The notes under the pieces: generated by a model
The model's database searches: none
What the model saw: only the letters and a program-made list of their open reading frames with translations
What the model was told of the DNA's origin: nothing
In this document: positions 14,183 through 34,638 of the stretch, in pieces
Numbering within the stretch: position 1 is the stretch's first letter
Layout: every line of letters begins with the position of its first letter
From: a virus
Length of the DNA stretch: 36,044 nt
Reading direction: 5' to 3' (one strand)
IMG/VR virus record: IMGVR_UViG_3300015371_003869
Coordinates: 1 to 36,044 of that record
Translations under genes and position numbers: made by a program

Positions 14183-14526
14183 TTTCCCGAGAAGTTCACC
14201 ACCGAATCAGCTGCTTCATATAGGGCATCAATCACTTCTGATGAAACTAAACCTGTGTCAGTAATTTTTGGGAAGAATTTAGTTTTTTCATCTTCATAAA
14301 TGATTTGATGAAGTAAAGCTTTACGGTACTGATCAACAGTTAGCCCAGTACTATTTTTCACCTTCCACACATCGGTTGCAGTGGCTACTTCGTCATGGGT
14401 AAGAATCTTGACAAGAACTTCCCCTGTAAATTCTTTGCCCTCTAAGTCAAGAAATTTAATAGTCTTCTCAACAAAAGTACCAATGCCAACAGCCTTTTGA
14501 GTGGCCTGTAATGTCAACTTTGCCAT
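14110..14526 (-). CDS. Tail assembly chaperone, G-like protein
   Basis: A 138-aa protein made when no frameshift occurs. It follows the tail tube gene with a one-base overlap at 14526 and precedes the tape measure, exactly where lambda G lies. N-terminal LTLQATQKAVGIGTFVEKTIKFLDLEGKEFTGEVLVKIL and later DQYRKALLHQIIYEDEKTKFFPKI are typical of lambda-G/phage tail chaperone proteins. It should coat the tape measure together with the rarer G-T fusion. The overlap with the T frame is about 70 bases and contains the slippery heptamer. It was identified from synteny and the frameshift architecture. Confidence 0.85.
   Translation of the reverse strand: MAKLTLQATQKAVGIGTFVEKTIKFLDLEGKEFTGEVLVKILTHDEVATATDVWKVKNSTGLTVDQYRKALLHQIIYEDEKTKFFPKITDTGLVSSEVIDALYEAADSVVNFSGKNWISTKEKNSGVNLSSTELVEEQ
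14182..14188 (-). other. -1 ribosomal frameshift site GGGAAAG
   Basis: On the minus strand the reading is TCG GGA AAG AAT, so the heptamer G-GGA-AAG fits the X-XXY-YYZ rule. It is the same heptamer used in phage lambda G-GT. Re-pairing on GGG AAA moves the ribosome into the T frame, which stays open to 13853. Confidence 0.85.
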
Positions 14527-14999
14527 TATGGTGTCACCTCACGACGAGTCATAGTCACCTTAGAGGTACGAACTATGGTGAAGTCATAGTTAATCACCGC
14601 ATCAACTTCAATGTCATTTGGCGCAGTATCATTCATATAACCTTTAAATGACCACCAGTTACGATCTTCTGGAAGATTAATTCCGCTTCCAGCTGTATAT
14701 GTTGGTGGTGTTTTTGAATGGCTTGAACCCACATACCAGTCTTTAACTTCACCCGATTCCGCAATTTTCAATAATTCGATGTGACTTGCATTTTCATCAT
14801 CTAAATTGATACCAATGCCTGCTTCACCTGGATCACGAATCCCACGGACATATTGCTTACTTTCCGCATCAAGACAAGTAACATCAATCTTCCCAAAGGA
14901 ATCCTGACCAAATTTAAAGTTTTTAGGGCAGACAAAACGAACAATCGCCCCGTTGACTACAGTGAATACTTGCGTACCCTGCGTTTTAGTTTCTGCCAT
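14526..14999 (-). CDS. Major tail tube protein
   Basis: A 157-aa predicted beta-barrel protein. The segments VNGAIVRFVCPKNFKFGQDSFGKIDVTCLDAESKQYVRGIRDPGEAGIGINL and WWSFKGYMNDTAPNDIEVDAVINYDFTIVRTSKVTMT match the layout of lambda-gpV-like and related siphophage tube proteins, with a core sandwich and a loop that stacks onto the next ring. Size and place (after the tail-completion genes and before the chaperones) are as expected. GGAG lies 8 bases before the ATG. It is the first tail gene downstream of the c4/AntA insertion, from which it is separated by a terminator. Confidence 0.8.
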   Translation of the reverse strand: MAETKTQGTQVFTVVNGAIVRFVCPKNFKFGQDSFGKIDVTCLDAESKQYVRGIRDPGEAGIGINLDDENASHIELLKIAESGEVKDWYVGSSHSKTPPTYTAGSGINLPEDRNWWSFKGYMNDTAPNDIEVDAVINYDFTIVRTSKVTMTRREVTP

Positions 15000-15021: not shown

Positions 15022-15043
15022 TAAAAAAACCACCTTGCGGTGG
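15022..15043 (-). terminator. Intrinsic terminator after antA
   Basis: Minus-strand stem CCACC/GGTGG with loop GCAA followed by TTTTTTTAT. It closes the c4/AntA unit. Confidence 0.85.
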
Positions 15044-15084
15044 CGTTGGTTTTGTTGGGGTGGCATTTGAAATGCTACCCTTTT

Positions 15085-15633
15085 TTAATCATCTTCTTTA
15101 TTCTCTAAATCTAATGATTGCTGTGTTTCGTTTATTAGGTCATCTAGCTCTTTAATCATTGCTGGCTTAGTCTGCTTTCCATGGACAACAAGAAAACAAC
15201 CTGCCTCAGATAGACCTTGTGTAATTAACTCAAGCTGTGCTGAAAGCTTACCGATCCGCACTTGCATTCCATCTTTAAGATTTCGGGCAATATCTTCTTG
15301 TTCGATGTAATACAGGCGAACTTCACGTCCACGATCAGTACACTCGACCATGGATAGCTCTTTGGCCATATCTACTGTCAGCATATACTCTAAAATTGTA
15401 ATAGAGCGCGTACCACCCTGATGAGGGACTTGCTCCACCGCTTGGACGGTCAAGTAATCACGGTTCTCGACAAATCCATACTTAGAAATACGTCGCTTAA
15501 TCCACTTTGAGAAGTCCTGCTTACTTTCAAGCCAGCGGTGCAAGCCACGAGCATTCACGCCGAGCTGAACTTTTCCATTTAATTCCACTTCGATAAATGG
15601 GGTTTGATTTTCAATTTTTACGATTGCATTCAT
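15085..15633 (-). CDS. AntA/AntB-type phage antirepressor
   Basis: A 182-aa protein whose first 75 residues form an AntA-type domain: FIEVELNGKVQLGVNARGLH, LESKQDFSKWIKRRISKYGFVENRDYL, then ITILEYMLTVDMAKELSMVECTDRGREVRLYYIE. The C-terminal 60 residues are helical and may oligomerise. Antirepressors bind and inactivate phage repressors, leading to prophage induction. The ATG at 15631-15633 has CGGAG 8 bases upstream; longer starts (to 15684) would run through the c4-like RNA terminator and are unlikely. The gene stands alone between two terminators within the structural operon, preceded by a structured RNA with complementarity to its leader. The target repressor is unknown: it may be this CI or that of another prophage. 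Confidence 0.85.
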   Translation of the reverse strand: MNAIVKIENQTPFIEVELNGKVQLGVNARGLHRWLESKQDFSKWIKRRISKYGFVENRDYLTVQAVEQVPHQGGTRSITILEYMLTVDMAKELSMVECTDRGREVRLYYIEQEDIARNLKDGMQVRIGKLSAQLELITQGLSEAGCFLVVHGKQTKPAMIKELDDLINETQQSLDLENKEDD

Positions 15634-15655
15634 TGATCTGCTCCGACTACTCATT

Positions 15656-15734
15656 AAAAAAGAAACACTGGCAAGAAGATGCAATGAATAGTCGAAACGA
15701 CCATCTTCTTTTCGAACCGTCGCTCTAGCCAGTG
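15656..15734 (-). ncRNA. Candidate c4-type antisense RNA upstream of antA
   Basis: A 79-nt minus-strand element. Outer stem CACTGGC (plus 15728-15734) pairs with GCCAGTG (15666-15672) and is followed by TTTCTTTTTT, an intrinsic terminator tail. Inside, AAGAAGATG pairs perfectly with CATCTTCTT (15702-15710 with 15673-15681), presenting a 20-nt loop. The loop bases CGACTATTCATT (15683-15694) can pair with AATGAGTAGTCG (15644-15655), which adjoins the antA ribosome site CGGAG; all 12 positions pair with one G-U. Size, position directly upstream of an ant gene on the same strand, terminator and antisense loop all fit c4 RNA of P1/P7, which represses ant. No promoter was identified with confidence. 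Confidence 0.75.
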
Positions 15735-15754
15735 GTTTGCCTGAAAACAGGCAT

Positions 15755-15808: not shown

Positions 15809-16171
15809 TTATCGATCAAACCACCAGTTAGCATCAAAGCCACGGCCGAAAATATTGGTATCAGCACAACGCTCAATATGATTCGGATGTAAGTTTGTGA
15901 TGGTGCATAGTGGGTCTAAAACAGCACTGATTTGCTTTCGAATATTTGAGGCTCGTGTTGCCTGTGTGTCATACACAACGACTTGAAAGGTCAAATGATC
16001 AATTTTAGGTGGACAATCCAAATTGTGATTAGGTACACCACCTACCAATGACCACACCACATAAGGAAATTTTGTTCCATTTGGCGCAATATCTTCATAG
16101 ATTCGATTGTTAACTAATGCAACAACATCAGGTGACGCTTGTAGTGTTTTAAAGATTGGTAAAATGTTCAT
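15809..16171 (-). CDS. Tail completion protein, DUF3168-like
   Basis: A 120-aa protein matching the usual form of DUF3168 / gpU-like tail terminators: N-terminal helix ILPIFKTLQASPDVVALVNNRIYEDIAPNG, the typical FPYVVWSLVGG block, then DHLTFQVVVYDTQATRASNIRKQISAVL. Such proteins cap the tail tube and join it to the head. Its ATG overlaps the stop of the HK97 gp10-like gene by 4 bases, so it is translated as part of the head-tail joining group. It is the last structural gene before the c4/AntA insertion, where a terminator follows. Confidence 0.85.
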   Translation of the reverse strand: MNILPIFKTLQASPDVVALVNNRIYEDIAPNGTKFPYVVWSLVGGVPNHNLDCPPKIDHLTFQVVVYDTQATRASNIRKQISAVLDPLCTITNLHPNHIERCADTNIFGRGFDANWWFDR

Positions 16172-25100: not shown

Positions 25101-25345
25101 TTAGTTTACGATACTGATCAGCTCGGCAACTGATCTACCGCTACTCAACACAACAAACATCTCAAAGTTAGCTATTGATCCGCTCTGTGTCTTTCAATTC
25201 CATTGGTCGGGGAGTCACCGACGCTTTAAGGCTCTGAGGCTAACTCAATGTGTGACGAAATCACATTGGATTCAAACCGATTTATACGGCTGGTTTCTGC
25301 ATCCCACCGTTTGCGCTTATAGCTGAACAAATTGTACAGCGTCAC
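25101..25345 (-). pseudogene. Split small gene: three short frames in series
   Basis: Between two terminators this stretch holds no single long frame. Three short frames follow one another, each shifted by +1: 25226-25345 (GTG start, 39 aa, begins MTLYNLFSYKRKRWDAE), 25168-25218 (16 aa, ends LKDTERINS) and 25101-25160 (19 aa, MFVVLSSGRSVAELISIVN), which can be extended upstream in frame. Read end to end they give a protein-like sequence of about 80 residues. It may be a frameshifted remnant, recoded, or three true mini genes. Several hairpins lie here too (CAATGTG/CACATTG, GATCAG/CTGATC). The rest of 25050-25480 shows nothing else. Confidence 0.35.
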
Positions 25346-29973: not shown

Positions 29974-30756
29974 ATGGAAACGCTTGGAACTCGTCTCAAA
30001 GAACTAAGAAAGAATAAAAAACTTACTCAACTGAATATCGCTGATGCATTAGGTGTATCTAAGACATCTGTGATTTACTGGGAAAAGGACGAAAACATAC
30101 CTAAACATGAGAGTTTGACTGCTTTAGCAAAACTTTTAGATACTAGTACTGACTGGTTACTAACAGGTAAAGAATCGAATTCTTTCAAGCCATTAAGCTT
30201 TGATGAAATTAAAAAGAAATTTGGTGAGCCTAAAGCTGTAGTTGAAGATATTGAAAATGACAATGGTATTAGGTTTTACAACTATGGAGATCCAGTTCCT
30301 GAAGGGTACACTGCAATAGACTACTTTCCTGAGGTCAAAGCTAGTGCCGGGAATGGCTACATAAACCTTGAAGAAAGCAGCCCATATAAACTATTCATTG
30401 GTGATGCTGAACTCTTACATGCTGGCGCTAATGCACCACACTGCAAGATCATCAACGTAGACGGTGAAAGCATGATGCCTGATCTCTATCCAGATCAAAA
30501 AGTATCAATTGATATGTCAGCTACAAAAATTTATGACGGTGAAATTTACGCTTTTACTAGAGGAAGCGAACTCAAAATTAAGATTCTTTTTAATTGGGGT
30601 GAAGAGGGTCAAGGTGGTTTTAGGGCTGTTTCTAGAAACTTTGACAAAGTTCGCTTTCCTGATGAGTATTACTCACCTGCCCTAATAGAATCAGAGAATG
30701 TTCGTATTGTGGGTCAATTATGGTGGAAGCAAGAAGTTCGAAAAATTAGACGATAA
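29974..30756 (+). CDS. cI: CI-type repressor with S24 autocleavage domain
   Basis: A 260-aa protein. The N-terminal HTH (LGTRLKELRKNKKLTQLNIADALGVSKTSVIYWEKDENIPKHESLTALAKLL) binds the operators. The C-terminal peptidase S24/LexA-like domain has the cleavage site Ala125-Gly126 (VKASAGNGY), Ser166 (VDGESMMPD) and a Lys at about 203 (SELKIKIL) with spacing to Ser like LexA. RecA-stimulated self-cleavage after DNA damage would induce the prophage. There is no clear ribosome site before the ATG, and the operator sits only 20 bases upstream, so the mRNA may be nearly leaderless as in lambda. A plus-strand terminator follows. Confidence 0.95.
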   Translation: METLGTRLKELRKNKKLTQLNIADALGVSKTSVIYWEKDENIPKHESLTALAKLLDTSTDWLLTGKESNSFKPLSFDEIKKKFGEPKAVVEDIENDNGIRFYNYGDPVPEGYTAIDYFPEVKASAGNGYINLEESSPYKLFIGDAELLHAGANAPHCKIINVDGESMMPDLYPDQKVSIDMSATKIYDGEIYAFTRGSELKIKILFNWGEEGQGGFRAVSRNFDKVRFPDEYYSPALIESENVRIVGQLWWKQEVRKIRR

Positions 30757-33490: not shown

Positions 33491-33919
33491 ATGTCTAAAT
33501 TCAAAATCGGTGACATTATCCGAGCTAAGAAAGGAGTTATTCAACTCCCCCCAATGGTGAAAGTTAAAAATAAACAATCACTTAGCTCAAATAAACTTAC
33601 AAATGTATTTGAGTTCACAGGTGAGCAAGGTAAACGTGATTGCGAAGTGATGTTTGCTGAGCTGAATTTAGATATGAGCAAATTTGCTCATATCTACACC
33701 GATAATATCGGTTCAGTTCAAATTGGTAAAAATACTCTATCATTAATTTTCTGGACTGAAAAAGGTGTAAGTATCCAACCTCAAATTGAGGATGGGATTA
33801 AATCGGCAAATGAAATTGTATTTGCCGAGTTTGAAATAGATGCGCTCAGTTTTGAGCACATCTATTTAGACACCACAAAGCAAAGCAACCTTGGAAGTAA
33901 CAAGGAGATCAAAGCATGA
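33491..33919 (+). CDS. Early protein with an internal duplication
   Basis: A 142-aa protein. Residues about 52-71 (CEVMFAELNLDMSKFAHIYTD) and 107-127 (NEIVFAEFEIDALSFEHIYLD) are repeats of one another, so the gene holds two similar modules. The DNA under each repeat is a strong inverted repeat (listed separately). A beta-barrel-like N-terminus (FKIGDIIRAKKGVI) precedes. No family is recognised. The ATG lies 10 bases after the clamp-like gene, and the gene overlaps the antirepressor start by 4 bases. Confidence 0.6.
   Translation: MSKFKIGDIIRAKKGVIQLPPMVKVKNKQSLSSNKLTNVFEFTGEQGKRDCEVMFAELNLDMSKFAHIYTDNIGSVQIGKNTLSLIFWTEKGVSIQPQIEDGIKSANEIVFAEFEIDALSFEHIYLDTTKQSNLGSNKEIKA
33669..33696. repeat. 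28-bp perfect palindrome
   Basis: The left arm TAGATATGAGCAAA is followed directly by its exact reverse complement TTTGCTCATATCTA. It lies inside the coding region for the first internal repeat of the 142-aa protein. A two-fold symmetric protein site or a cruciform/mRNA hairpin are both possible. Confidence 0.9.
33834..33867. repeat. Inverted repeat with 15-bp arms
   Basis: AAATAGATGCGCTCA and TGAGCACATCTATTT are complementary at 14 of 15 positions (the remaining one can pair as G-U in RNA) around GTTT. It lies under the second internal repeat of the same gene, 165 bases after the palindrome. Confidence 0.85.
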
Positions 33920-34638
33920 ACGCATTAGTGAATTTAAATACTGTTTCAGTCTCAAGTTTAGATATTGCAGAATTGGTTAAAACTGAGCACCGCAATGTAA
34001 AAATATCAATTGAAAGATTGATGGAAAAAGGCGTAATCCGACATACGCCAATGACGAATGTCGAAAAAATCAATAACTTAGGATTTTCAATTCAAGTCGG
34101 TGTTTATATTTTTGAGGGAGAACAAGGCAAGCTAGACTCAATCACTGTAGTCGCTCAACTCTGTCCTGAGTTTACTGCAGCTTTAGTCAAACGCTGGTAT
34201 GAATTGGAAAACCAAAAACCAAGAGAATTAACTCGATTAGAAATATTGCAGATTGCTTTGCATGCCGAGCAAGAGAACCAAGTTCTACACGAAAAAGTTG
34301 AAATTCTTGAACCTAAGGCAAAAGCGCTCGATACCATCGCTAATACCGAGGGTACATACAACATTCGTGAATGTGCCAAAACAATTGGTATAGGTGAACG
34401 CAAGTTAGTCGATTTACTACTTAAAAAGAAATGGATCTATCGCGAGGAAAGTGGTCGTTTACAGCCATATGCCACCAAACGTGCTGAAGGTATTTTTATA
34501 AATCGACCTTCACCCGTTGTTACTAACAAGTATACAGGTGAAGAACAAGTTCATTTACATATGCGCATAACTGCTTATGGATTAACAAAAATCGCTGAAT
34601 TGGTAAATAATTTTTTTAGTGAGGATGGTGTGGAATGA
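33916..34638 (+). CDS. Phage antirepressor, Rha-type N-terminus with KilAC domain
   Basis: A 240-aa protein. The N-terminal about 90 residues match the Rha regulator (VSSLDIAELVKTEHRNVKISIERLMEKGVI, YIFEGEQGKLDSITVVAQLCPEFTAALVKRWYELE). A short coiled coil follows (LHAEQENQVLHEKVEILEPKAKALDTIA). The C-terminal 105 residues form a KilAC DNA-binding domain: NIRECAKTIGIGERKLVDLLLKKKWIYREESGRLQPYATKRAEGIFINRPS. Such proteins act on phage repressors or host regulation. It is the second antirepressor-type gene of this prophage, here under the early promoter. It is coupled to both neighbours by 4-base overlaps. Confidence 0.9.
   Translation: MNALVNLNTVSVSSLDIAELVKTEHRNVKISIERLMEKGVIRHTPMTNVEKINNLGFSIQVGVYIFEGEQGKLDSITVVAQLCPEFTAALVKRWYELENQKPRELTRLEILQIALHAEQENQVLHEKVEILEPKAKALDTIANTEGTYNIRECAKTIGIGERKLVDLLLKKKWIYREESGRLQPYATKRAEGIFINRPSPVVTNKYTGEEQVHLHMRITAYGLTKIAELVNNFFSEDGVE

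Follow-up and report, generated by a model that had tools for sequence, protein, structure and literature searches.

A temperate phage of the Acinetobacter type carries, among its tail genes, a moron-like module that probably consists of an AntA antirepressor gene and of a cis-encoded antisense RNA that holds antA silent. The loop of this small RNA is complementary to the leader of antA, and in relatives of the module loop and leader change together. The control logic is already known from P1 c4 and has been reported for the antA of N15. What appears to be new is the RNA family of Acinetobacter, the swappable recognition code carried by its members, and the evidence that canonical int-alpA RNAs, too, are directed against the leader of the gene that follows them.

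Organization of the module

The window, that is, the whole stretch of 36,044 nucleotides that was analysed, an IMG/VR virus record, has the gene content of a temperate phage, with an integrase, a CI-like repressor (positions 29974-30756, plus strand) and the late genes on the minus strand. Along the minus strand, the tail terminator gene (15809-16171) is followed by a terminator-like hairpin, an inverted repeat, the RNA (15656-15734), antA (15085-15633), a terminator and the tail tube gene (14526-14999). The hairpin (15787-15760), which by its sequence resembles an intrinsic terminator and is completed by a T-run (15759-15754), ends the tail terminator gene on the 5' side of the RNA, and relatives carry different terminators at this position. 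The inverted repeat (GCCTG-TTTT-CAGGC, 15739-15752) lies directly 5' of the RNA and is kept in most relatives. The terminator predicted after antA (15029-15044) closes the module before the tail tube gene.

The antA product has 182 amino acids and is of the AntA/AntB type, a putative antirepressor by homology. In a profile search it matches PF08346 with an E value of 2e-24 (86.4 bits, against a gathering score of 27), and it matches the anti-repressor Ant family phrog_5817 with an E value of 3e-56. Its start is the ATG at 15633, preceded by the Shine-Dalgarno (SD) sequence GGAG at 15644-15641, and not the TTG of the mechanically derived open reading frame. The window has a second gene of antirepressor type at 33916-34638 (plus strand), with a Phage_pRha-like N-terminus and an ANT/KilAC domain. 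A Pseudomonadales-1 RNA (RF03046, 116.7 bits) is found at 25116-25269 on the minus strand; the region around it, some 1.4 kb upstream of the late genes, holds few genes.

A consensus scan of the minus strand, including the interval that separates the RNA from the terminator before it, identified no promoter belonging to the module itself. Upstream of the terminator ahead of the RNA, some relatives (L055, L072, L101, L150, L088 and L110) have in common a TTGACA...TATATT or similar stretch, followed by AGCGAAGCCG. As a promoter this candidate was rejected, the spacing being a misfit for sigma-70, and nothing is drawn from it.

An earlier note on this DNA had treated the site inside the late operon as out of place. 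However, comparisons by tblastn and with PHROGs revealed that in many loci the module stands behind the tail terminator gene, that in other loci it stands ahead of the tape measure gene, and that both slots hold the RNA with varying effectors, the pattern of a P22-type moron. Because the late operon of P22-like phages harbours 'ant morons' that combine an antirepressor with an antisense RNA (PMC2629481, PMC8022706), and because the position behind the tail terminator gene is used repeatedly, the location is no puzzle in itself.

Structure and family of the RNA

Direct reading confirmed, coordinates included, the 79-nt minus-strand RNA that had been proposed ahead of antA, with its outer stem, inner stem, loop and terminator tail. 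The outer stem has 7 bp (15734-15728 with 15672-15666), the inner stem (stem 2) has 9 bp (15710-15702 with 15681-15673) and closes the 20-nt target-recognition loop GUCGUUUCGACUAUUCAUUG (15701-15682), and the molecule ends in a U-tract (15665-15656). Two elements absent from the earlier description are a short hairpin ahead of stem 2 (hairpin 1, 15725-15722 with 15717-15714) and another, of 4 bp, within the loop, which occupies part of the anti-leader sequence. The z value of the fold is -2.3.

Relatives were gathered blind to the leader, by a DNA pattern that described only the RNA (58 viral loci) and by R1, a covariance model made from 23 RNAs; a third set was reached through the AntA protein. 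The stems covary: RNAalifold gives 14 consensus pairs, 10 of which have changes on both sides, and one branch has swapped the entire outer stem (CACUGGC/GCCAGUG to AGCCAAC/GUUGGCU) with the pairing kept. The window RNA, itself one of the 23 model sequences, scores 101 bits with R1. Matches to R1 (E<=0.01) occur in 33 of 176 Acinetobacter genomes, whereas 293 genomes from the rest of the order, searched under strict filters, gave no match.

Regarding family, a cmscan of the whole window assigned the RNA to RF02996 (int-alpA) with 38.3 bits and an E value of 1.4e-4, over the curated cut-off of 35.8. The RNA had earlier been described as c4-like, but an Infernal search with the C4 model of Rfam (RF01695, curated cut-off of 45 bits) gave no match at E<=10 in 301 bases around it, and none at E<=0.05 in the 20 relatives scanned. 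Nine of these 20 reach E<=0.05 in the Rfam scan, all of them as int-alpA at 30-43 bits and several just under the cut-off, and membership in the C4 family was not borne out. As the relatives reach these scores with int-alpA and none with C4, we place the window RNA, by sequence comparison, as a distinct and outlying Acinetobacter branch at the edge of int-alpA. The int-alpA RNAs are located, as the family name says, between integrase and alpA genes; the window RNA lies between the tail terminator and tail tube genes.

The general anatomy and logic are alike enough to consider that the RNA is genuinely of the P1 C4 family and was relocated to the late operon. We find this hardly credible, as RF01695 fails to match here although 127 of 149 Acinetobacter genomes have C4 RNAs that exceed the cut-off, with as many as 26 in one genome. 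Besides, C4 has two separate contacts, a' and b', and the window RNA has one contiguous contact (15655-15640), which adjoins and covers the SD.

Pairing of the loop with the antA leader

The loop of the int-alpA-like RNA fits the antA leader at AAUGAGUAGUCGGAGC (15640-15655), which contains the SD. The 12-base pairing near the ribosome site that was noticed earlier is real and stronger than described, its 12 bases being the core of 17 contiguous pairs, 13 of them Watson-Crick, that cover the whole GGAG with a duplex energy of -23.4 kcal/mol. Among 5000 shuffled loops none is as strong, and the best target of the loop on either strand of the phage is the antA leader, excepting the RNA's own complement.

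The covariation of loop and leader was examined in 44 unique pairs, a set that left out beforehand the loci with a class B hairpin (described below) between RNA and leader. The mean energy is -18.9 kcal/mol, compared with -15.5 (sd 0.45) when loops and leaders are re-paired, and re-pairings as low number 0 in 10,000, a count that, like our other permutation counts, is not a strict probability because related sequences are not independent. Shuffled loops over the same pairs have a mean of -8.1 kcal/mol. The c4/ant logic of the earlier note, in so far as it means an RNA loop that is aimed at an antirepressor gene's leader and SD and that covaries with the leader in relatives, thus stands; its assignment to the C4 family does not.

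The loops fall into three types, I (GACUA), II (GACUG) and III (CAURUUC). Cognate classes of loop and leader pair best, with the type III loops CAUGUUC/CAUAUUC fitting the leaders GAACAUG/GAAUAUG, and types I and II pair poorly with type III. Taken together, types I and II have 97.6% of cells paired over 14 positions in 15 distinct combinations, against 32-55% when the register is slid by up to three positions. Both-side changes are found at two of these positions, and the remaining variation is carried by G-U pairs. Re-pairing inside types I and II still leaves 96% paired, with 9 of 2000 shuffles reaching the observed value, a modest result that is due to much of the signal being conservation; the strong contrast is between types, and not within I and II. 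In one relative (L018) a base is missing from the loop and from the leader alike, and three RNA matches (L144, L145 and L154) are found without a fitting leader. Chance complementarity of loop and leader is ruled out by the shuffles, the re-pairing and the register tests.

Genes behind the RNA and exchange of modules

The genes behind the RNA and leader encode AntA, Rha, KilA-N with P63C, P22_AR_N and T5orf172/MUG113 proteins. Types I and II are each found with several of these effector families, and type III with Rha, P22_AR_N and AntA. One genome (G091) has two type I loci, with P22_AR_N and AntA as effectors, and another (G115) has two type III loci, with AntA and Rha.

An identical AntA protein of 180 amino acids follows a type I RNA in 15 loci, whereas in 14 loci it follows another module, made of a single hairpin. 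These do not add up to 29 phages, because some contigs are represented by more than one overlapping piece. The second module, class B, is a terminator hairpin whose loop CUCGUUACC is perfectly complementary to GGUAACGAG at the SD of antA. The hairpin lies about 60 bases upstream of antA in L025, L036, L006 and L009, and likewise in L002. Class B loci keep an int-alpA-like RNA upstream that has no target in cis and whose loop fits the type III leaders of other loci. The type I and class B antisense modules, which stand before the same AntA, are unrelated to each other. With one RNA lock on at least five antirepressor-type gene families, and one AntA under two unrelated modules, specificity is exchanged at the RNA level.

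These data also bear on a simpler role, in which the hairpins only end the upstream transcript and shield the late operon, and the match of loop and leader is the relic of an old inverted duplication. Terminators do bound the module, as is usual for morons, but we consider a role of this kind very improbable, given that loop and leader covary, co-deletion included, and that the pairing recurs with a sequence of its own in each of types I, II and III and with another hairpin in class B.

Antisense RNAs in other bacteria and phages

Canonical int-alpA RNAs from other Pseudomonadota have a hairpin-2 loop that fits the leader at two sites, one immediately behind the U-tract and the other at the SD. 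Over the first 20 bases, one of two measures tried on the first set, 29 loci (L186-L215) gave -8.2 kcal/mol against -6.4 re-paired (sd 0.32; 0 of 10,000), for int-alpA sequences that are similar to one another and so not independent. A second set of 19 loci from another genome draw (L226-L253) gave -7.3 against -5.1 kcal/mol (sd 0.33; 0 of 10,000). The alternative measure, over the first 40 bases, gave 38 of 10,000 in the first set and 0 in the second. In both sets the loops were set by a simple hairpin finder, which failed on 1 of 30 and 8 of 27 loci and mis-set a few. An antisense match to the leader of the next gene is thus a candidate function for int-alpA. When ten int-alpA neighbour genes were tested for family, hardly any gave a match. 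Among the publications searched, to which the paper reportedly defining int-alpA (Weinberg et al. 2017) did not belong, none assigns int-alpA loops to the next gene's leader.

Taken as a set, the C4 RNAs of Acinetobacter (L156-L185) likewise fit the leaders next to them, at -25.2 against -19.4 re-paired (0 of 5000), and loci with two contacts occur among them. The next long ORF after them often appears, as read from sequence, to encode a TetR-like regulator or a lipoprotein-like product. The Group 1 sRNAs of A. baumannii are phage RNAs of C4 type, present in many copies per Acinetobacter genome and with a target unknown to the authors who described them (Weiss 2016, PMC5320573); the adjacent C4 leaders would give them adjacent targets.

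Two sRNA-Xcc1 RNAs (RF02221; L257:1357-1442 and L260:122-211) immediately precede AntA/AntB-type antirepressors in phages of E. coli, and in L260 the loop CUUUGAAG fits CUUCAAAG at the SD. C4 RNAs with a strong leader match are found before an Ant gene in a Mannheimia phage (L259:1323-1406) and before a Rha gene in a Bordetella phage (L258:520-607).

Proposed mode of action and implications

Transcription ending at the RNA's own terminator would release an RNA of about 79 nt, and read-through past it would yield the antA mRNA, with a leader that is the complement of the RNA loop. The resulting duplex, of up to 17 bp over the SD, most likely shuts the ribosome off the antA leader, and translation of antA would be blocked. 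The block would operate in cis within the read-through transcript. The analogy of P1 c4, which acts in trans (PMC8546580), suggests that it would also operate in trans. AntA would be made once its mRNA outruns the RNA, as might happen on entry of a phage into a cell that lacks a matching RNA or during a surge of transcription. The module might, for example, be expressed by late read-through. The protein would then inactivate a putative repressor; in phage P840, antA prevents lysogenization (PMC10612081). Under such a mechanism the loop type, and not the effector type, would set who silences whom. The hairpin within the loop, which engages part of the anti-leader bases, and the absence of an evident promoter just ahead of the RNA weigh against this mechanism.

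The predicted fold of the read-through RNA seats the loop on the leader in cis, and a purely cis element could do the same, as an attenuator combined with an SD-sequestering leader of the antA message and with no free RNA acting on other transcripts. The outer stem and U-tract do resemble a terminator, and the target is always within about 50 nt of the RNA throughout types I to III. We nevertheless consider a cis element of this sort unlikely. The elaborate fold that has been kept, with hairpin 1 and the outer stem, would be superfluous for plain masking of the SD, and some A. baumannii-type contigs retain the RNA with no cis target, their antA being served by another hairpin. The trans action of P1 c4 argues in the same direction.

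A wider proposal can be made, which we offer tentatively and at somewhat less than even odds: that the loops and leaders serve Acinetobacter prophages as an immunity code at the RNA level, with escape by swapping of the RNA module, and that int-alpA RNAs in Pseudomonadota are antisense controllers of the adjacent gene. The loop-leader type would then work independently of repressor and effector type, and the RNA of a resident prophage would silence the antirepressor of any phage, co-resident or incoming, whose leader matches. A phage would escape by changing its module, and the same AntA protein is indeed found behind two modules. Loop against leader would be a concrete rule for which prophage can silence which antirepressor in Acinetobacter. 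Cross-talk between prophages through common loop and leader types is plausible from the sequences, which include two same-type loci with different antirepressors in one genome.

Comparison with known systems

The module resembles the c4 system of P1 and P7 (the immI operon, c4-icd-ant) in that a small folded RNA lies just 5' of an antirepressor gene, with a loop that fits the leader near the SD, and in that the antirepressor locus is apart from the main repressor gene. In contrast to c4, the RNA is not of family RF01695, no icd ORF separates it from the antirepressor gene, a single contact of at most 17 bp is made, and the module sits among tail genes. C4 itself is an RNA of about 77 nt that is processed by RNase P. 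The Group 1 sRNAs of A. baumannii are C4 relatives by Rfam, whereas the window RNA is of another family.

In N15, immA contains antA (PMC10612081), and the antirepressor is reported to be controlled by a processed RNA of small size (Ravin et al. 1999, as cited in PMC10432266). As far as that citation goes, immA is the nearest experimental precedent for an antA-type antirepressor paired with a small RNA, with the difference that immA is an icd-antA-antB operon and the module of the window a tail-gene moron. The DNA of N15 gave no match by Rfam (one stretch) or by R1 (two stretches), and annotation located neither immA nor its RNA there, so that the comparison rests on citations.

The immI ant moron of P22, with its sar RNA, is alike in joining an antirepressor and an antisense RNA inside the late structural operon and in being highly variable among relatives. 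P22 also uses the Arc and Mnt proteins, neither of which is seen in the module of the window, and we know of no sequence relation between sar and the window RNA.

With int-alpA (RF02996) the window RNA shares the order of the fold and the consensus motifs CUAG and CGAAA, and it passes the cut-off; canonical members likewise carry loop-leader complementarity to the next gene. It differs in its borderline score (30-43 bits in relatives), in a loop of 20 nt against about 9, and in one long contact in place of two short ones, and the genes that it would target are those of antirepressors.
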